This document shows, in pieces, positions 258-43,141 of a stretch of DNA of 43,984 nucleotides. The stretch lies in IMG/VR virus record IMGVR_UViG_3300003886_000011, positions 1 through 43,984 of that record; one strand, given 5' to 3'. The DNA comes from a virus. The notes beneath the pieces were generated by a model that saw only the letters and a program-made list of their open reading frames with translations, was not told the DNA's origin and made no database searches. How positions within the stretch are numbered: the stretch's first letter is position 1; every line of letters begins with the position of its first letter. The position numbers were made by a program, and so were the translations under genes.

Positions 258-437
258 TTGTTGTTAGGTATTCGATTTAAAAGATTGTAATATCTACCCT
301 AGGCCAGACTACCTATTGTCAATTTACGGCCAGTAGGCGGCAACCTCACGACAATTAGACATAGTTCCAGCGATATCAAGCTACTAACCCAATACCGCCA
401 GAACTACTAACTGATAACGAATATCAATATCAAGAGA

Positions 438-698
438 TTAATATCTCCCTTTAATACAATCCAACAACTCCTCGGCTGCTTCATCTCTACTCAAATCCTC
501 ATTTACATAAGCCCTAATTACACTCACAGCAGATACAATTAAACCGTTATCAACCAAACAAGCACAGTTATTCTCAAGCATCCTTAACATCCCCTCAATG
601 TCTTTCATCTTGCTCTCCATAACCCACACCTCCAGTTTTATTATTACCACCATCTCTAACATTCTAATACACGGATTATCGCCTAGATTAACATTCAC
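438..698 (-). CDS. small hypothetical protein
   Basis: An 86-residue protein I do not recognise. The GTG at 698 is preceded by AGAGGAAG, while an internal ATG at 620 has a better GGAGGT seven bases upstream and would give 60 residues, starting MESKMKDIEG. The C-terminal half is helical and acidic. It lies 10 bases after the next upstream gene and is the last leftward gene before the gene-free left end. If the map is circular it precedes the genes ending at 43934. Confidence 0.55.
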   Translation of the reverse strand: MNVNLGDNPCIRMLEMVVIIKLEVWVMESKMKDIEGMLRMLENNCACLVDNGLIVSAVSVIRAYVNEDLSRDEAAEELLDCIKGRY

Positions 699-4059: not shown

Positions 4060-5804
4060 AGAAATTTAAATCTTGGTTCGAATTGACCTTAAGGCATCCA
4101 GCTCTTAAGGATTGGAAGCGGGAAGCTGAAGAGGATTTAGCTTTCTACGATGGGGATCAATTCAGTCAAGAAGAGATTGCTGAGCTGGACGAAAGAGGTC
4201 AGCCGATTATAGAAGTTAATAAGGTTCAACCTAAGATGAATAATCTCATGGGTGCTCATGCTTCTATGCCGGCGAGACATGTGGCAAAAGCTAGAAGTGA
4301 AGACAGTACTGAATCCGCCGAGGCTATAACCGACGTGTTTAGGTATATAGATTACCGTTCTGGTTATTACGACGAAGAAGCTGATATGTTTCAAGATGGT
4401 GTATTAGCTGGATTAGGTTGGATGGAAGCAGTTGAGAGTATTGATGAGGATGGGCAGGACGAGGTTCTTTTTAAATACGAAGAAACGCTTAATATGAGAG
4501 CCGATCCGTTTGGCCGCAGCCAGGATCTAGACGCAGATTACCGTTTCTGCTCGAGGGATAAATGGATGTATCTTGAAGACGCCCAAGAGATGTTCCCCGA
4601 TAAAGCGGCAATACTTACACAAGCTGTAGTTCAAAGTGAGGATGTCTTTGAATCTGTAGCTCATCGTGGGCCTAATGATGATTATGATATGAAAGACGAT
4701 AGTGTATCCTACGTTGATATTAAAAAATCAAGAGTTAGAATTGTTGAACTTTGGTATAAGCACACAGAGAAGGTTATGTTCACCGAAGATAATCGTTATT
4801 TAGCAAAAGAAGATTTAAATTTCTATCGAGGGCCAGATGATGAGTTTAAAGACGATGAAATAATCATGGCTGATAATAACATCCGTTCAGCAACCCTCAA
4901 AGTCTGCCGGAAGGTTTTCTTTACGGGCGATCATATACTACAAGAATCAATAACGCCATTTAATCATCCATTATTGATTACGAAATTTCCATTATTTATC
5001 TTCGTCTGCTTTAGAAAAAAGAGCGGTGAGAGAAAAGGCGAACCATATGGGTATGTTAGGAATATGAAACCCATGCAAAGGGAGATTAATAAAAGAAGAT
5101 CAAAGGCCATGCATCTTCTTAATACAACCAAAGTCATTATGGACGAAGGCGCGGTTGAGGATGTTGATGAATTAAGAGACGAGGCAGCTAGGCCGGATGC
5201 TATTATAGCTAAAAAGAAGGGTTTTGACCTAGTTCTCGATGAAGGTGCTCAACTTGCAAACTCCCAGTTTTCAATCATGGAAAAATCATCTCAGGATTTG
5301 CAGGAGATTAGTGGGATATTTGATGAGAGTATAGGAAGCGCAACTAATGCCAGAAGCGGTAAAGCCATTGGTAAGAGAATAAGAGCTTCAAATCAGAATA
5401 ATATAAAGGTATTTTCCAACCTCCGCAGAACTAGGAGAAAGATTGGAGCATTCAAACTCGGCGTTGTTAAGCAATATTTCAACGAAGAGAGGATATTATA
5501 TATAACAAATGAGGATTCATTAAACGAACCTAAGAAGATTGAACTTAATAAACCAGAAGACGGGAGAGTTAAAAACAGCATCAAAGAAGCGCTCGTGAGG
5601 ATGGTGATTGATGATGCCCCGGCTTCTGCTACTACACAGGAGGAACAATTTGATGAGTTAGTAGAATTAGCAAGGGGAGGATTCCCAATACCACCGAAGG
5701 CGATTATAATGGCTTCGAACATCCGTAATAAGGATGAAATTCTTAAACTAATGAGTGTTAACCCACCTAATGGTGACGGCACAGACGGAGCTTCAAATGG
5801 ATAA
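4044..5804 (+). CDS. portal protein, P22 type
   Basis: A 586-residue dodecameric portal through which DNA is packaged and ejected. The N-terminal pattern YDGDQFSQEEIAELDERGQP followed by IEVNKVQP is characteristic of P22-like podovirus portals. The position between terminase and scaffold fits. It is shorter than P22 gp1 (about 725 residues), mostly through a short C-terminal barrel region. Translation probably couples to the terminase through the 16-base overlap. Confidence 0.92.
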   Translation: MENCIEKFKSWFELTLRHPALKDWKREAEEDLAFYDGDQFSQEEIAELDERGQPIIEVNKVQPKMNNLMGAHASMPARHVAKARSEDSTESAEAITDVFRYIDYRSGYYDEEADMFQDGVLAGLGWMEAVESIDEDGQDEVLFKYEETLNMRADPFGRSQDLDADYRFCSRDKWMYLEDAQEMFPDKAAILTQAVVQSEDVFESVAHRGPNDDYDMKDDSVSYVDIKKSRVRIVELWYKHTEKVMFTEDNRYLAKEDLNFYRGPDDEFKDDEIIMADNNIRSATLKVCRKVFFTGDHILQESITPFNHPLLITKFPLFIFVCFRKKSGERKGEPYGYVRNMKPMQREINKRRSKAMHLLNTTKVIMDEGAVEDVDELRDEAARPDAIIAKKKGFDLVLDEGAQLANSQFSIMEKSSQDLQEISGIFDESIGSATNARSGKAIGKRIRASNQNNIKVFSNLRRTRRKIGAFKLGVVKQYFNEERILYITNEDSLNEPKKIELNKPEDGRVKNSIKEALVRMVIDDAPASATTQEEQFDELVELARGGFPIPPKAIIMASNIRNKDEILKLMSVNPPNGDGTDGASNG

Positions 5805-6483
5805 AGAAAACGAAGAGCAGGAAAAAGAAGTAGAATTATTCCCTACAGAACAGCCCTTTGAGGAGAATGTTGATGAGATCAAAGAGGCCTCCGATGAAGA
5901 GGGAGACAAATCATCGGACGAAGATAAAGGCGAGGAAGGAGAGAAGAAGGTTGATTTTGAAAAACGCTTCAATGATAGTCAATTATTCATTGAAGAGCTC
6001 AGGACTAAAAATACTGAGCAGGAAGATTCAATCCTCGATCTAACAGGCAGGCTTAAGCATTTGGAGGAAGTGACCAAGAAGAATCAAGAGGTTATTAATC
6101 CAGATGAGGAATACAAAGAGTATAAAGCTCCGGAGAAACCAGATGTTGCTTCTGATTGGGCAAACAAGGTAGAGACGGAGGAGAAAGCTCTTGTGACGGT
6201 ATTTCCTGATTACTATGAAGTAGTTGGAAAAAGCGGCGATACTGATTCTCCTTTCTTAAAAGCGGTAGCAGAAGATCCTAAACTACACGACAGGATTCTT
6301 AATGCGGATAGACCGGCGGCTGAAGCATATAGGGTTGGATTGGATTATAAACTTGCGCAGGTAAAGAAGAAAGATCCAGTTCCACCTAAGCCAAAGACTC
6401 CTTCACTAAGAGATGCTCCAGGTTCAAACAACGAACCTATGCAGAAACCTGAAGATAGTTTAGGAAGCATATTTAAAAATTAA
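5797..6483 (+). CDS. capsid scaffolding protein
   Basis: A 228-residue, strongly acidic, Glu/Lys-rich protein with a predicted coiled coil near residues 55-100 and a Pro-rich basic tail. This composition and the position between portal and capsid are typical of scaffolding proteins. I use the ATG at 5797 (MDKENEEQ), which overlaps the portal stop by 8 bases and has GGAG upstream, not an upstream in-frame ATG lying deep inside the portal gene. Confidence 0.8.
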   Translation: MDKENEEQEKEVELFPTEQPFEENVDEIKEASDEEGDKSSDEDKGEEGEKKVDFEKRFNDSQLFIEELRTKNTEQEDSILDLTGRLKHLEEVTKKNQEVINPDEEYKEYKAPEKPDVASDWANKVETEEKALVTVFPDYYEVVGKSGDTDSPFLKAVAEDPKLHDRILNADRPAAEAYRVGLDYKLAQVKKKDPVPPKPKTPSLRDAPGSNNEPMQKPEDSLGSIFKN

Positions 6484-6497
6484 AAGGAGTATGGAAA

Positions 6498-7550
6498 ATG
6501 TCTTATACTGAGATATCCACCTCCCATGGTTTAACACAGGAACGGTGGGAGAGTGATTTATACAAGGAATATCTTGGTGAGTTTCCGTTCTTTGATCTAA
6601 TGGGCACGAGTTCCGACTCAGTGATTCAGGTTAAAGAGGATCTTACCAAGAACATAGGAGATGCAATTACCATCGGTATCAGAGCTAAACTCTCTGGTGA
6701 TGGTCAGTCTGGTACTTCTAGATTGAAAGGTAATGAGGAGCAGATGGAGTTCTTCAATCAGAGGATTGAGATCGATGAACTTAGACATGGTGTGCTTCTT
6801 AAAGGCAAGATGAGCCAGAAACGTGTTGCATTTAATCTCAGGAATGAGGCTAAGGATGCGCTTAAGGATTGGCTCAAAGAGAAGACTGAGATAGCGTTGA
6901 TCAGTGCGATTTCCGACGTTACAACTGGCAGGGTTCAGGGTAGATATTTATACGGAGCTGCTAATGGTAACTGGAATAGTACCCACGCTACTGCTCAGGC
7001 AAATGTAGATGCTACTAATGATATCATGACTCTTGCGATGATATCCATCGCTAAGCGTAAGTCGAAGCTTGGTACGGGTATTAAGATGAGGCCATTTAAG
7101 ATCAAAGACAGTGGTCGTGTAATCGCAGAAAAACTTATCATGTTCATTCATGATTACGCTGCTCGTGACCTTAAGGCTGATACTAATTGGTCAACCATTC
7201 AGAACAACATGATAACCGCCGGTAAGTATGATGTTCCGCTTATCTCTGGAAGCAACTTCCTCGGGGAGTATGATGGTGTTCTAATCTACGCCTATGATAG
7301 GGTTGAAATAGACACAGGCGCAGGTGCTGGAGGTATCGACATAGCACATAATCTTCTGCTCGGCGCTCAGGCTGCAGCAATAGTTTGGGGAGAGAGAACT
7401 ACCTGGGCTGAGGATATTGATGACTATAACGATGAGAACGGATTTAAGATTGGCGAGGTTAGAGGCATAGAGAAACTCGTATTCAACAGAGACACAGCAG
7501 AGGATCATGGCGTTGTTCATGTTTACTCAGCTGCAGTCGCAGACGCTTAA
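6498..7550 (+). CDS. major capsid protein, N4-gp56 family
   Basis: The 350-residue main shell protein. The N-terminus (LTQERWESDLYKEYL), the conserved DAITIGIRAKLSG region and the LLLGAQAAAIVWGE segment match the N4-gp56-type capsid family (HK97 fold) known from many podoviruses. A strong AAAAGGAG ribosome-binding site precedes the ATG. It is followed by the probable decoration gene, the usual order. Confidence 0.92.
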   Translation: MSYTEISTSHGLTQERWESDLYKEYLGEFPFFDLMGTSSDSVIQVKEDLTKNIGDAITIGIRAKLSGDGQSGTSRLKGNEEQMEFFNQRIEIDELRHGVLLKGKMSQKRVAFNLRNEAKDALKDWLKEKTEIALISAISDVTTGRVQGRYLYGAANGNWNSTHATAQANVDATNDIMTLAMISIAKRKSKLGTGIKMRPFKIKDSGRVIAEKLIMFIHDYAARDLKADTNWSTIQNNMITAGKYDVPLISGSNFLGEYDGVLIYAYDRVEIDTGAGAGGIDIAHNLLLGAQAAAIVWGERTTWAEDIDDYNDENGFKIGEVRGIEKLVFNRDTAEDHGVVHVYSAAVADA

Positions 7551-7572
7551 TAAATATTGGAGGTAATTCGTA

Positions 7573-8328
7573 ATGGGACGTAATGGGTATAGATATTGGA
7601 GCATACAGCTCTTTGATGAACGTAAAGGTTTGAAGATTAACGATGATTCTGGTGTCGCTAATATTCTGACAGATGGTAGTCCGGTTGAGATTGCCCTCTA
7701 TTCAGATGAGGTAGGTACTAGCGCTTCAAATCCTCTCACCTTTACGGATGGACATGTAAAGTTTTGGACGGCTGATTCGGTAACATCTGTTGATATTTCG
7801 ATTCTCACGGCAGCTGGAGAGGCGATATTCATCAGTGGGCAGTCCGCAGCAGAGTTTAGGATCAACGTCGACACGCAGAAAAGGGAGCAGACGTTGATAA
7901 TTCCCTTTGCTGCTTCTACAGCTGAGACAGATACTGGGTTTAATCTTCCTGCGAATCTCATGCTCAAGGAATGTTATGTAAGGGTTACTGCTTTGGATGT
8001 AAGCGAGACTATTGATGTTGGTCTTCTTTCTACTGAAACGGGTGGCGATGCTAATGGCCTCCTTGCTGCTATTTCTGTAAATGCCTTAGGTACGATCCAG
8101 CCTGTGGTAGTTACTAATGGTAGTAATGAGGCTTACATATCTTCCTTTGTTGGCGGAGCTCTTATGTACGCAGGTAGGGTAGGTACTGATCTTGACCAGG
8201 ACAATGGCATGGCCGGGTCTCTTGGTTATGTTACTGATGGAACAGCGGCCAGTATAACTCATACTGGATCAGCGGGCAGCGATACGGCGGCAGGATATAT
8301 AATCCTGGAGTATATTAAACTTACATAG
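7573..8328 (+). CDS. probable capsid decoration protein
   Basis: A 251-residue, beta-rich, Gly/Ala/Thr-rich protein following the capsid gene, with GGAGGT upstream. There are no catalytic motifs. Its composition and position are those of capsid decoration or head-fibre proteins that stabilise the shell; this is inferred from context. It ends in TAG, and the next reading frame continues in phase without a stop for the 120 bases up to the next gene. Confidence 0.6.
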   Translation: MGRNGYRYWSIQLFDERKGLKINDDSGVANILTDGSPVEIALYSDEVGTSASNPLTFTDGHVKFWTADSVTSVDISILTAAGEAIFISGQSAAEFRINVDTQKREQTLIIPFAASTAETDTGFNLPANLMLKECYVRVTALDVSETIDVGLLSTETGGDANGLLAAISVNALGTIQPVVVTNGSNEAYISSFVGGALMYAGRVGTDLDQDNGMAGSLGYVTDGTAASITHTGSAGSDTAAGYIILEYIKLT

Positions 8329-8329
8329 T

Positions 8330-8358
8330 TGTCAAAATCCAACGGTTGGATTTTGTCA
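8330..8358. promoter_or_regulatory. 29-base dyad element, copy 2
   Basis: The most symmetrical copy: TGTCAA-aa-TCCAAC, central G, then GTTGGA-tt-TTGTCA. It begins 1 base after the TAG of the decoration gene and lies ahead of the adaptor gene. The right flank TTGTCATTTATG nearly matches that of copy 3. Operator or protein-binding site; the one-base centre and lack of a T run argue against an intrinsic terminator. Confidence 0.7.
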
Positions 8359-8372
8359 TTTATGTCAAACTT

Positions 8373-8429
8373 AGATGGGGAGGGCTACTTAATAGCTAGA
8401 AAAAGCTTATTTGGTAGTCTTTCCCATCT
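8373..8429 (+). ncRNA. long structured RNA hairpin in the intergenic leader
   Basis: Bases 8373-8389 pair with 8413-8429 as a continuous 17-pair helix. It consists of AGATGGG with CCCATCT, then GAG with TTT (G-U, A-U, G-U), then GGCTACT with GGTAGTC (two more G-U pairs). After one mismatch the helix continues with ATAGCT against AGC(T)TAT and closes on an AGAAAA loop. Because the G-U pairs become A-C mismatches on the other strand, the structure is expected in the rightward transcript. It ends 19 bases before the adaptor ATG. Likely roles are RNase processing, mRNA stability or translation control. Confidence 0.65.
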
Positions 8430-8448
8430 CCCTCACGGGGAAATTGAT

Positions 8449-9096
8449 ATGAATTTTCAGCAGTTAAAAGATCAAGTTGTTAACATGGTAGGTAAGGATT
8501 TAGAGCATAGTATTGAATATTTTATCCAATCAGGCCAGTTGGCGCTTGAGCGGGAATTGAGACTAAGCGCAATGTTGGATCATCACGCTGTTCTCACTTT
8601 AGCATCTGGTGTTAATAGTATTACATTATCGTCTAATTTTATAGAACTAAAATATATATGTATAGTTGATGGAACTACTAGATATTTTTTAAAAGAGCAA
8701 GAATCTGATCTTTCTATGCTTGAGAGTAATCGTAATCATAGAGAAGATACAACGAATACAGGAAGGCCTACTAGATATAGAATATTAAAATCTGATAATA
8801 TATTAGAGTTTAATCGTTATACAGACAAAGCATATAAACACGAGGCCGCTGAATATCATCACCTATCGGAATTAACAAATCCATCAGATACAAACTGGTG
8901 GACAACCAATGCTTATGATGTTCTACTCTTTGCGGCTTTGGTTGAATCAATTCCATTTCTCGACATGACAGTTAAAGAATCCAGAGGTGTGAGAGCTTGG
9001 GTAAGTATTTTAAGTAAGAAAATAGAGGATCTTAGAGTTGCGGATAGTAGAGAAAAATTAAGCGGCGGTCGTAAACGCACGAGGTATGTAGACTAA
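8449..9096 (+). CDS. head-tail adaptor protein (SU10-adaptor-like)
   Basis: A 215-residue protein with an N-terminal helical segment (MNFQQLKDQVVNMVGKD), a beta-rich middle and a C-terminal helical region, resembling the phage adaptor family that joins portal and tail. I start at the ATG at 8449 behind ACGGGGA. The in-phase region upstream, back to 8329, holds the dyad and hairpin and has no protein-like composition. It ends where the next gene begins (1-base overlap, TAATG). Confidence 0.65.
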   Translation: MNFQQLKDQVVNMVGKDLEHSIEYFIQSGQLALERELRLSAMLDHHAVLTLASGVNSITLSSNFIELKYICIVDGTTRYFLKEQESDLSMLESNRNHREDTTNTGRPTRYRILKSDNILEFNRYTDKAYKHEAAEYHHLSELTNPSDTNWWTTNAYDVLLFAALVESIPFLDMTVKESRGVRAWVSILSKKIEDLRVADSREKLSGGRKRTRYVD

Positions 9097-19008: not shown

Positions 19009-22000
19009 GCCTAAAAGATTTTCAAGAAGTTATGGTAGGGATTGAAAACGACCCTGCTACTCATCGTGCGTTTGTTGATGAGTATTACGACACACAGATA
19101 ACAAGATCGTTAGATTATCAATTCAGCACGCCTGAGATGAGAGATGAGTTTAAGAAGAATTATTACACATCTTTTGGTTATGGTCAAGAAGCAGACGAAG
19201 CTGCAGTGGAAGGTGATGGAGCTTTTCAATATGTTAAGGATGTTGCATCAGGTGCGCTCGGTACTATTGAAGGAATGGCAGGTGTAGCTGAGTGGTTAAG
19301 CGGCGGAACTTTCGGGGGAGATTTTGCAGATGCGGTTAAGTCTTGGCGGGAGGATCTAGCCCCAAGTGAAATGACGTTTAGTCATCAAGTAGCTCAAGGT
19401 GTTGGTTCGATGCTGACTTTTTTCATTCCAGGCTTAGGCGCAGCTAGAGGTGCTAGTGCGATGGCTAAAATAGCTCCTAGAATGGCTATGTGGCTTGGTG
19501 CTGGTACGATGACAACTATTGAAGCTTCAACGGAAGCAGGTATGGTTTATAGGGATCAGATTGCGAAGGGGATAGATGAGGAGAAAGCAAGCAGTGCGGC
19601 ATCGTGGACTTTCCTGCTTAATCTACCCACGCTTATTGTTACTAATAAACTTGGTTTGTTTGCTGGTAAGGGTGGACTAGCCCGGAGAGCCTTAATCTCT
19701 GGCCAGATGGAGGGTCTGCAGGAAGCTGCTCAGGAAGGAATCTCTGGTTACGCTAAGGGAGAATTGGCCGATGTTAAGTTTAAGGATTATTTAAACGCTT
19801 ATGGTGTTGGAGCTATCATAGGCACAGGAGCTGGGGTGTTGTCTCCCTCAGATACAGCCGAGAGTACAGATATTGAACCAGATCCTCGTCTACCAGAAAA
19901 AATAGATATGCTTAATGTTCGCGATGCTACGGAGGAGATTACTAAACCTCAACCACTCGAACTTGATATTCCTACAGATGAGAACGCAGTGTTAGATCCA
20001 GAGAGTGATCAGCCACTTAGTTTCGCCTATAAAGATCCACTTAAGTCTGACTCATCTGCTGTTGATATTCCAATTATTGGTTCGGGCGAAGACCAAATTG
20101 CCGAAACTCCGGTTGAACTTCAGGCGGATATTGATGCCGCTGAGATTTCATCTATATTAACAACCAGTCCTTTTCTTCGTTCGGCAGAAGACCTCATAAC
20201 GCTCAGGACTTATGATAAAAGCAAGGGTGAGATTATACTTCCAGATTACATGCGGCAGGAGGAACATGCTGTTGATATAGTTATTCCTTCAACTTATAAA
20301 TCCGCCCTTGTTGGGATTAAATATGTACGAGCAGCTAAGGCTCAGATAACTAAGAATAGAGCGTTGGAGGATTTATCCTACATCCCCAATCCAAAGGAAA
20401 ACATTACACCAGAAGATGTAGCTAATGATGCTGGGGTTAATTTTGATGGTCAGTATGAAATCTCTCCTGGGGTTCAGGCTTTTAATTTTACAGACCCGGT
20501 CAATAAAGGAACTAAAACTTATTTTAACGAAGCACCTACGGCAGAGAAACTTCAGGCAGATTTTGCTGAACAGGCTAAGAGGTTCGAAGAGGCTGATAAT
20601 CTAAATCTTGACAAAGATGTTAAGCTTCCAACCGTTGGAAAGCCAACAACTGTGACAAGAACTCCCACACAAGAGTTCATGCGTGAAGTTATACCTTCCG
20701 TTCCTGCAGAGCGTAGAGCATTGGCGGAGAGAATAGCTGCTAAGAGGACTAGGATTGACGTTAATAAAATAACCGAAAAAATGGCTAAGGGCGAAAGTAT
20801 AACAGCGAAAGAAATGCAGGCATTGAGGGATTCTGGAATTGTCAGTAAGGTACCTGAGGGTAAGCCAGACGTTGAAGACATGGGTGATGTTATGTCATTA
20901 CAGAATCAACGCAGACCAAAGAAGGGTGTGACGGTCGATTTCATGGGTACGCAGTTTGCTTATGATACTTTTGTTAATATTCTTAAGCCTTATTTAGGTA
21001 ATCTAAGTAAGACCTCCGGAGAGGAGGTTAATATAGATATGAAGGATTGGGTTGTTAATACTTTATTAGCCACACCAAGGCACATAGCTACGCATTTTAA
21101 ACTCATTGAGAGTAAGCTCAATAAGAAATTAATTAATGTTAAAAGTTTTCTTCCTGAGGAGTATCAAAAACTAAACTCTGATGAACTTTATCCAGCATTG
21201 ATTGATAATATAAAATTGGGTGATGAGATACTTAATAACATACCAGAAGAATCTAAAGGTATTTGGAGAGATTTCTGGCAAGGTGTGAATCAATATAAAG
21301 GATTTAAAAGTTTCGGTAAGATGTATACTGTGGTGAGGGATTATTACAGAAACATCAGCCTAGCAAGAGAGAATACTTATCATAAAACAGAAGTATTTTG
21401 GGATCTTAAAAGAGTTGACAGACAAAAAGCTGGCGCTTTATTAATCCAAGAAGATATAATGAATAGAGAGTTAACGGAAGCGGAGTTAGCTGAGATGAAA
21501 ATTTCCAACAAAGCTAAGTCTGGTTATAAAGCCGTAAGAGCTGAGTTGAATCATATCAGGGATAATGTTATAATCCCAGAAATGCGTAAGTCGAAAGTTT
21601 CAGATCAGGAGATAGCTGACTTTCGTAAACGCATGGAAGGTTACTTTCCCCATAGAAGATTCGGCAATCATGGGATTATAGCAACAGAAAATGGTGAAAC
21701 TGTTCATCTTGAATTTGTAGATGGCTTAGGGGCAAAACAAAAAGCTAGAGGTATGATTGCTGATATACAGAAGCAGTTTCCAAATGCTGAAGTTAGAAAA
21801 ATAAACCGTAATGATATTCCACCAGAAGCATTACAGGAGATACCAACCGGCGATTTCTTTGAAGCTATATTAAATAGGGTTGGGGATTTAGATGCTGATA
21901 TTGCACAAAATGTTAGGGAGTATTTTAAACAGCAGAAATTGATTAGGGGTTTTGGTAGGCACTTTATAAAGCGGAAGAATATCCCTGGATGGAGTACTAA

Positions 22001-23579
22001 TGCTGATATGGTATTGTCCGACTACTTTAATTCCGCCGCAGGTTATAATATAAAGTTTGATGCAGCGCAGGATAGTCTAGAGGCTTTGGCGGGGATTAAT
22101 CCTAGTACGCAATCTAATTTACATAAATATGCATCTAAATACTACAAGTATGTTTTTAAAGATAAGTCTAACGAATTTCATCGGACTAAAGCTGCTTTAT
22201 TTTACTGGTATCTTGGTGGTAATTTTAAATCCGCTCTGGTTAACGGCACACAGAATTGGATAACAGCTGCTCCGGTATTATCAACCTATAGTAAAAGAAG
22301 CGGTTACTGGCAAATCGTACAGTCAAGTAAGGATTTAGCAAGTGGTAAGATTAATACTAATGAGAAAAAGGCGTTACAACTAGGGCATGATGAAGGTTTC
22401 TTGCGCGATATTCAAACGTCTGAAATGTTTGGTACAACGGATAATTTTTTAACCAGTGAACTTGGACCAAAGTTAGGATCAGCTATGCGCTTTATGTTTG
22501 GTAGTGTTGAGAAGTATAATCGAAGTTCAACGTTTCTGGCTTTCTTTCGTGCGGCTAAACGAAAGGGATTGACTGATGGTAAGTCTTTTGATGTAGCCAT
22601 GGAAGCTGTAGATAAGACGCATTTTATGTATGGTAAGGCAGATAGACCAATAGCAGGACGAGGAATATTATCTCCGCTGCTTACTTTTAGAATGTTCACT
22701 ATTCAGTATGTTCAATTTCTTAAAAGAAATCTTGATCAAAAAAACTACGCAACAGTAGCTAAGAGCACGGGTATGATAGCAGCATTGGCTGGGTTAACTG
22801 GACTGCCTGGGTATGAATTGTTTAATGCTGTATATGGCTGGACAACAGGAGATGATGCTGAGAAAGATTTAAGAAAATATACCAATGGGATGGCAAAGGC
22901 ATTGTTGGGTGAGGGGCACAATAAAGCGGCTCAGAAGATCGAAAGATTGGTTAGCCGGGGATTACCTGCGGCGATGTTTGGTGTTGACTTATCAGGGTCG
23001 CTGGGTTTTGGTGATATAATACCCGGATCAACACCGGCAGAATTAATCGGTGTTCTTGGCGATGTTCCGAAAAGATATCAAAAGATTGCCAGAGATATTA
23101 GATCGGGAGATAATATGAGGGCGGTTGAGGATCTAGCCCCTGAATTTATCCGTAATCCAATGGCGGCGTTTAGGTTGACAACGCAGGGGATGTATACCAG
23201 AAGCGGTTCTCCGATTAAAGATCTAGATGGTAATGTAATTAGGATGGACTCTAAGCAAGCAATATTAAAGGCTTTTGGTTTTCAACCGATCGAGATGAGT
23301 GAGAAGTGGAGAGCTGCTGATGTGGTTCAAAAGAAGATTCTTAAAACTACGGAGATAAAAGGTAGATTTCTAGATGCTCTTATGGTTGCGATTAATAAAA
23401 AGGATAATGTTTTATACCGACAGATTATAGAAGAGATGCAAGCTCATAACGCTTCCTCTGATTATGAAGATAGGGTTATCATAACCAAAGAAAGCATTAT
23501 AGGCAGGATGAGAGGGCGGAGAACAACCAGACAGTTTAGAGGTTTTGAGCGAAAGGTTAGAAGCGTTTTTGAGGAATAA
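19005..23579 (+). CDS. giant internal/ejection protein with LPD38-like C-terminus
   Basis: A 1524-residue protein. The N-terminal 280 residues have several small-residue membrane-active stretches (VGSMLTFFIPGLGAARG, AYGVGAIIGTGAGVL) as in DNA-ejection proteins. The middle is helical and charged. Residues about 1060-1330 (YLGGNFKSALVNGTQNW, LLTFRMFTIQYVQFLKRN) resemble the large polyvalent-protein domain LPD38 found in giant phage internal proteins. It should be injected with DNA and span the cell envelope. No transglycosylase motif seen. Last gene of the late operon. Confidence 0.75.
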   Translation: MSLKDFQEVMVGIENDPATHRAFVDEYYDTQITRSLDYQFSTPEMRDEFKKNYYTSFGYGQEADEAAVEGDGAFQYVKDVASGALGTIEGMAGVAEWLSGGTFGGDFADAVKSWREDLAPSEMTFSHQVAQGVGSMLTFFIPGLGAARGASAMAKIAPRMAMWLGAGTMTTIEASTEAGMVYRDQIAKGIDEEKASSAASWTFLLNLPTLIVTNKLGLFAGKGGLARRALISGQMEGLQEAAQEGISGYAKGELADVKFKDYLNAYGVGAIIGTGAGVLSPSDTAESTDIEPDPRLPEKIDMLNVRDATEEITKPQPLELDIPTDENAVLDPESDQPLSFAYKDPLKSDSSAVDIPIIGSGEDQIAETPVELQADIDAAEISSILTTSPFLRSAEDLITLRTYDKSKGEIILPDYMRQEEHAVDIVIPSTYKSALVGIKYVRAAKAQITKNRALEDLSYIPNPKENITPEDVANDAGVNFDGQYEISPGVQAFNFTDPVNKGTKTYFNEAPTAEKLQADFAEQAKRFEEADNLNLDKDVKLPTVGKPTTVTRTPTQEFMREVIPSVPAERRALAERIAAKRTRIDVNKITEKMAKGESITAKEMQALRDSGIVSKVPEGKPDVEDMGDVMSLQNQRRPKKGVTVDFMGTQFAYDTFVNILKPYLGNLSKTSGEEVNIDMKDWVVNTLLATPRHIATHFKLIESKLNKKLINVKSFLPEEYQKLNSDELYPALIDNIKLGDEILNNIPEESKGIWRDFWQGVNQYKGFKSFGKMYTVVRDYYRNISLARENTYHKTEVFWDLKRVDRQKAGALLIQEDIMNRELTEAELAEMKISNKAKSGYKAVRAELNHIRDNVIIPEMRKSKVSDQEIADFRKRMEGYFPHRRFGNHGIIATENGETVHLEFVDGLGAKQKARGMIADIQKQFPNAEVRKINRNDIPPEALQEIPTGDFFEAILNRVGDLDADIAQNVREYFKQQKLIRGFGRHFIKRKNIPGWSTNADMVLSDYFNSAAGYNIKFDAAQDSLEALAGINPSTQSNLHKYASKYYKYVFKDKSNEFHRTKAALFYWYLGGNFKSALVNGTQNWITAAPVLSTYSKRSGYWQIVQSSKDLASGKINTNEKKALQLGHDEGFLRDIQTSEMFGTTDNFLTSELGPKLGSAMRFMFGSVEKYNRSSTFLAFFRAAKRKGLTDGKSFDVAMEAVDKTHFMYGKADRPIAGRGILSPLLTFRMFTIQYVQFLKRNLDQKNYATVAKSTGMIAALAGLTGLPGYELFNAVYGWTTGDDAEKDLRKYTNGMAKALLGEGHNKAAQKIERLVSRGLPAAMFGVDLSGSLGFGDIIPGSTPAELIGVLGDVPKRYQKIARDIRSGDNMRAVEDLAPEFIRNPMAAFRLTTQGMYTRSGSPIKDLDGNVIRMDSKQAILKAFGFQPIEMSEKWRAADVVQKKILKTTEIKGRFLDALMVAINKKDNVLYRQIIEEMQAHNASSDYEDRVIITKESIIGRMRGRRTTRQFRGFERKVRSVFEE
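20626..20640. repeat. bare dyad core inside the giant ejection gene
   Basis: TTCCAACCGTTGGAA contains the 13-base core of the dyad element but lacks the TGWCAA arms. It is within coding sequence. It may be chance or an intragenic binding site. Confidence 0.4.
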
Positions 23580-34208: not shown

Positions 34209-34242
34209 GATACTCCCTCCGTTTGATTGTTTTGTCATAAGT

Positions 34243-34271
34243 GTTGGGTATCCAACGGTTGGAACTTGACA
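34243..34271. promoter_or_regulatory. 29-base dyad element, copy 3
   Basis: The core TCCAACGGTTGGA (34251-34263) is followed by ac-TTGACA-TTTATG, matching the right flank of copy 2. The left arm (GTTGGG) is diverged. It lies between the Sak4-like gene stop and the ssDNA-binding gene, with no promoter-like -10 on the leftward strand. A protein-binding site is most likely. Confidence 0.65.
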
Positions 34272-34307
34272 TTTATGACATTTATATATTCAACTATAAG
34301 TCTTAAC

Positions 34308-42966: not shown

Positions 42967-43000
42967 AGCTCCTCCGATTAGTCGTTAATCTCTATATGTT

Positions 43001-43029
43001 ATATTACCATAGTTGGGTATGTATGTCAA
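43001..43029 (-). promoter_or_regulatory. main leftward promoter, TTGACA-17-TAATAT
   Basis: Minus-strand TTGACA (43029-43024), 17-base spacer, TAATAT (43006-43001), the best promoter match in the window. It drives 42679-42966 and, through readthrough, much of the early operon. Dyad copy 4 lies 84 bases upstream. Confidence 0.85.
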
Positions 43030-43112
43030 GTATTATATTGTCTAGTGTTTACGGGCACTTAGGCCACTTATACACATTACACATATAGTTACCTATAGTT
43101 ACCCAACAACCG

Positions 43113-43141
43113 TGACAGCATCCAACCGTTGGATATTGTCA
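43113..43141. promoter_or_regulatory. 29-base dyad element, copy 4
   Basis: Half-sites TGACAG-ca-TCCAAC and, on the other strand, TGACAA-ta-TCCAAC are inverted around a C. It is between the micro-gene stop at 43148 and the main leftward promoter, suiting an upstream regulatory site. Confidence 0.65.

Follow-up and report, generated by a model that had tools for sequence, protein, structure and literature searches.

The window, by which we mean the whole stretch of DNA that was analysed, is an IMG/VR virus record of 43,984 bases from an uncultured bacterial virus; in its left half the genes point rightward in the order terminase, portal, a gene in the scaffold position, major capsid, a head gene of 251 aa, adaptor and tail genes. 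The 251-aa gene (7573..8328, + strand) follows the major capsid gene, lacks a family match and likely encodes a decoration protein; a gene of 252 aa occupies its place in the distant relative L026. The next gene (8449..9096, + strand; 215 aa) had been taken for the adaptor in an earlier note on this DNA, and its product indeed matches the Pfam family SU10_adaptor (PF24175, E = 1.9e-12) and PHROG 2941, i.e., a head-tail connector. The gap from the stop codon of the 251-aa gene at 8328 to the adaptor ATG at 8449 contains, in this order, a palindromic dyad (8323..8365, + strand), a long hairpin (8373..8429, + strand) and the Shine-Dalgarno (SD) sequence of the adaptor gene (GGGG, 8437-8440), which lies 8 nt ahead of the ATG. 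The hairpin starts 7 nt past the dyad and ends 7 nt ahead of the SD, and thus sits right after the dyad and close to the ribosome-binding site, as had been described. The dyad is one of four intergenic copies and possibly a protein-binding site; formation of an RNA hairpin is also feasible. Right next to the long hairpin, a mini-hairpin of four pairs that takes in the adaptor SD is predicted (CCCU-CAC-GGGG, 8430..8440, + strand).

RNA folding of the + strand at 8373-8429 yields a lower helix of 17 pairs without interruption, formed by the 5' arm (AGATGGGGAGGGCTACT, 8373..8389) and the 3' arm (8413..8429), and a bulged upper stem of seven pairs (8390..8412) that is closed by an AGAAAA hexaloop. 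The 17 pairs and the loop agree with the earlier note, while the upper stem of six pairs given there has to be corrected to seven pairs with a bulged U. Four pairs of the lower helix are G-U (8380/8422, 8382/8420, 8384/8418 and 8389/8413) and keep the helix unbroken, as had been pointed out. The hairpin has a minimum free energy of -31.3 kcal/mol (z = -7.15), none of 200 shuffled sequences was equally stable, and it ranks first in stability among 17,566 windows of 70 nt covering both strands of the 44-kb record. In dinucleotide-shuffled sequence, helices that have 17 bp or more, counting G-U pairs, and span up to 90 nt are expected 0.2 times per strand, so that the length of the helix alone is not decisive; the case for the hairpin is carried by its stability and conservation, and less by helix length. 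Because of its G-U pairs the fold is strand-specific, the complement reaching only -17.6 kcal/mol, and this gap in stability between the strands points to selection on the rightward RNA.

Conservation could be followed in one near relative, the 7.6-kb record IMGVR_UViG_3300003876_000036 (L007), whose portal, capsid, adaptor and next tail proteins are 81%, about 84%, 71% and 82% identical to those of the window, respectively. Both genomes share the order of dyad, hairpin, SD and ATG, and the outer stem of the dyad is kept. The L007 hairpin differs by 15 substitutions and one deletion, yet folds slightly more strongly (-32.4 kcal/mol, compared with -25.4 kcal/mol for its complement). In the structure common to both genomes, comprising the hairpin and the SD stem, all 26 pairs are standard in either sequence; 21 of them are unchanged, three are altered on one side and two on both sides. 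These two double compensatory changes, read from the window to L007, convert C-G to U-A at 8385/8417 and A-U to G-C at 8391/8411. When the partner positions were slid as a control, pairing fell to 42-61%. The lower helix retains 15 of its 17 pairs (8373-8387 with 8415-8429), the innermost two pairs at 8388-8389 being replaced by a 3x3 internal loop, and the upper stem retains seven of seven pairs at 64% sequence identity. The layout is thus 17+7 pairs in the window and 15+8 pairs in L007, with one internal loop reported for each.

Random placement of the 15 substitutions and the deletion matched the stability of L007 in 0.04% of trials, and permuting the bases of L007 over the changed positions did so in 0.12%; with the changed positions fixed and bases drawn at random, equal stability was obtained in 5.7%. 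A within-pair shuffle reached the observed counts of pair changes in 111 of 500 trials, which is not significant for two sequences. Moreover, the two genomes agree at every position of a 22-nt run (8421..8442, + strand) that covers the last part of the 3' arm and continues through spacer and SD, whereas the adjacent genes are 46-58% identical at third codon positions. Part of this constraint may come from ribosome binding, since the run includes the SD. Selection on the rightward RNA had been suspected in the earlier note, which also named covariation in advance as the test. Conserved pairs and compensatory changes in L007, the one close relative, now speak for such selection together with the 22-nt run and the strand asymmetry. 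We conclude that the folded RNA element at 8373-8429 is real.

Scans with the adaptor, capsid, portal, terminase and next tail genes, and a search of IMG/VR for an exact 19-nt part of the element, revealed no near relative beyond L007. The covariation therefore rests on two sequences. In a family-wide portal search, L025 and L026 were 44% identical and the remainder at most 32%; the hairpin sequence is absent from these relatives at 44% portal identity or less. A covariance-model search of 92 sources matched only the window and L007 on the + strand. Its matches on the minus strand were weak self-matches to the hairpin's own complement, and one match in L014 had an E-value of 0.17. No Rfam family reached the gathering threshold in the window, the best match under permissive settings being mir-787 with 19.5 bits compared with a gathering score of 57.

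What might the hairpin do? A cis-acting function of some kind at the RNA level is very probable. More specifically, the hairpin could plausibly be a processing or stability element of the late mRNA of the type represented by the RNase III sites of T7, a reading that builds on analogy and that we prefer to the alternatives below, if tentatively. The RNase III sites of this phage are rods that extend over about two helical turns and contain an internal loop. The element described here is a non-coding rod of about 24 pairs with one small internal loop, 7 nt from the adaptor SD. Measured against the shape of such sites (about 20 pairs or more, usually an internal loop, intergenic position in an mRNA), the rods of both genomes, with 17+7 pairs in the window and 15+8 pairs in L007, agree with phage RNase III sites in their length and in having an internal loop. 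Common to the R sites of T7-like phages and the hairpin are the intergenic position, a rod of about two turns, the internal loop, the lack of a U-tract and a polycistronic podovirus mRNA. The hairpin differs from them in that it has no known sequence relation to them, lies directly ahead of the adaptor SD and is a site at which cleavage is only predicted.

According to this proposal, the element would act as an untranslated folded RNA within the rightward late mRNA, at the boundary of the capsid and tail cassettes. Host RNase III, a double-strand-specific endonuclease, would cut or bind the rod; a cut would part the abundant message of the capsid genes from that of the tail genes, and the folded ends left behind would slow exonuclease decay. 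As an outcome, head and tail proteins would be made in unequal amounts. Phages with one late operon need hundreds of capsid subunits and few adaptor proteins. The hairpin sits exactly at the boundary of the two, the place at which T7-like phages change over between capsid and tail expression, and probably helps to set the amounts of capsid versus tail proteins. T7-like phages provide a precedent for such a scheme, and this would be a fairly ordinary job for a phage RNA. In contrast to T7-like phages, no unassigned open reading frame (ORF) sized for a T7-type RNA polymerase is present in the ORF list of the record. A search with PF00940 for a phage-encoded single-subunit RNA polymerase, the enzyme that a capsid terminator of the T-phi type works with, gave no match in the record, but its control matched no genome either. 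The hairpin is a testable device for head and tail output in a phage without an evident polymerase of its own. In this little-studied group of podoviruses, it also offers a target of defined sequence at which RNA ends could be mapped.

Alternatively, the hairpin, alone or with the dyad, might serve as a transcription attenuator that halts some polymerases after the capsid cassette, which we consider unlikely. Such an arrangement has precedent in T7-like phages, where a strong terminator stands right after the capsid gene; in LUZ100, it lies directly 3' of this gene (PMC10134795). The hairpin shares with T-phi of T7 and with the LUZ100 terminator (PMC10134795) a site past the capsid genes and ahead of the first tail-connector gene, but it lacks a U-tract, follows a second head gene instead of the capsid gene and abuts an SD. 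Moreover, terminator-like hairpins with U-tails occur near the junction in some distant relatives (L012, L018 and L091), and the dyad at 8323-8365 scores as terminator-like in a terminator scan. The number of terminator-like elements in the region is, however, at chance level (three found, 2.8 expected), and the long hairpin is not among the predictions of the scan. The RNA after 8429 reads CCCUCACGGGGAAAUUG, and a T-run, which an intrinsic terminator needs behind its GC-rich hairpin, is absent after the long hairpin on either strand. The lack of a U-tract thus argues against an intrinsic terminator, and so does the adaptor SD within 7 nt of the hairpin end in both genomes.

Translational control of the adaptor gene, in which the long hairpin and the mini-hairpin would hide the SD or bind a phage protein so that the low-copy adaptor stays scarce, appears similarly improbable. 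The adaptor SD is indeed paired in the predicted ensembles of the window and L007 (unpaired probability 0-0.16), its accessibility of 0.16 is the third lowest among 21 genes, and the mini-hairpin does not differ between the two genomes. However, the SD of the major capsid gene, a gene expected to be highly expressed, is predicted to be fully paired in both (accessibility 0.0 in the window, 0.01 in L007). Predicted occlusion thus does not follow the output expected of a gene, and we rejected occlusion of the adaptor SD as proof of translational control because the capsid SD is even more occluded. Furthermore, whether or not the long hairpin is included, the mini-hairpin is largely formed, so that the rod is not needed for it. 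Of the proposals in the earlier note, selection on the rightward RNA is supported, whereas the version that invokes control of adaptor translation is weakened. As an observation in its own right, a fully paired prediction for the capsid SD (GGAG, within about 6480-6560) is odd for a gene expected to be highly translated.

We also considered a leader regulated by CsrA/Rsm through a phage-encoded CsrA, an arrangement for which the phages Parlo and BcepMigl, with a CsrA gene next to the capsid gene, provide a model. Annotated CsrA-like genes occur in L019 and L022; PF02599 has no match in the record, and we dropped this candidate. Regulation by a CsrA of the host is conceivable.

It is highly improbable that the stretch acts as a palindrome at the DNA level, that is, as a site for protein binding or recombination whose RNA fold is incidental. 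A true repeated palindrome, the dyad, with further intergenic copies, does lie 7 nt away, but the long hairpin occurs only once in the window, its four G-U pairs are mismatches in DNA and weaken the complement (-17.6 versus -31.3 kcal/mol), and the compensatory changes alter the sequence yet keep the pairing. That the stretch encodes the N-terminal part of a longer adaptor, for which the adaptor frame of the window is open upstream to a TTG at 8329, is largely refuted, because the L007 ORF begins at its own ATG at 5207 with an in-frame stop upstream before any start, the L007 hairpin carries a deletion of 1 nt, an SD precedes the adaptor ATG by 8 nt in both genomes and the Pfam match takes in the very first residue of the protein that starts at 8449; the coding sequence through the stretch that the earlier note had named as a refutation is thus absent from L007.

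Folded RNAs in the gap shortly past the capsid cassette were also found in the distant relatives L016, L034, L026 and L006, where they resemble the hairpin in position but have unrelated sequences and no covariance-model match. L026, which has the same gene order, carries only a short hairpin of 12 pairs directly ahead of the adaptor SD; a near-copy of it lies elsewhere in that genome (39389-39419), and owing to this second copy it corresponds to the dyad of the window, not to the long hairpin. In L006, a GC-rich hairpin occupies the capsid/adaptor gap. The L016 rod follows the capsid cassette in a gap ahead of an HNH gene and consists of a 14-pair lower stem, an internal loop and a 9-pair upper stem without a U-tail. 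We surveyed the gaps at 57 loci in which a capsid gene was recognised, an exploratory analysis of redundant loci, and found z below -3 in ~28% of gaps one gene past the capsid gene (n = 40) and in 33% of those two genes past it (n = 9). Such folds are scarcer in most other gaps, but reach 29% just ahead of the capsid gene (n = 45), so a hairpin is not a firm family-wide mark of the capsid/tail junction.

The three strongest 70-nt folds of the record, at 8373-8429 (+), 361-407 (-) and 23445-23501 (-), each lie downstream of the stop codon that ends a gene block of the same strand. It is conceivable, if doubtful, that long G-U hairpins without U-tails form a common system by which this phage ends or processes its transcripts; equally speculative is the corollary that the repeated dyads mark some of the same boundaries.

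The fold at 361-407 (-) is a helix of 22 pairs, eight of them G-U, that starts ~30 nt past the stop of a leftward gene and lies within a compact fold at 338-440 (-) of -37.9 kcal/mol (z = -5.5); helices of at least 20 pairs were absent from 30 shuffles. The fold at 23445-23501 (-) has 23 pairs, including five G-U, and no U-tail (z = -6.4). It is located ~55 nt past the stop of the last leftward gene, inside the coding end of an opposing rightward gene of 1524 aa.

The palindrome around TCCAACGGTTGGA has four intergenic copies (222-259, 8323-8365, 34233-34280 and 43113-43141), each downstream of a stop codon, and a fifth copy of the core only lies in coding sequence at 20626. The 23-nt core is expected zero times by chance, and the repeated palindrome is likely an operator-type protein-binding site. 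A repeated dyad is also present in L026, where one copy occupies the capsid/adaptor junction; it is unrelated to that of the window. By eye, a strong-looking sigma-70 promoter (TTGACA, then TAATAT) is found at 43000-43031 (-), with a copy of the dyad ~80 nt upstream of it. Further runs identical between the window and L007 comprise 58 nt within the 251-aa gene (8144-8201), where third codon positions are 58% identical overall, and 47 nt spanning the junction of the capsid and 251-aa genes (7540-7586), raising the question of an overlapping signal or recombination.
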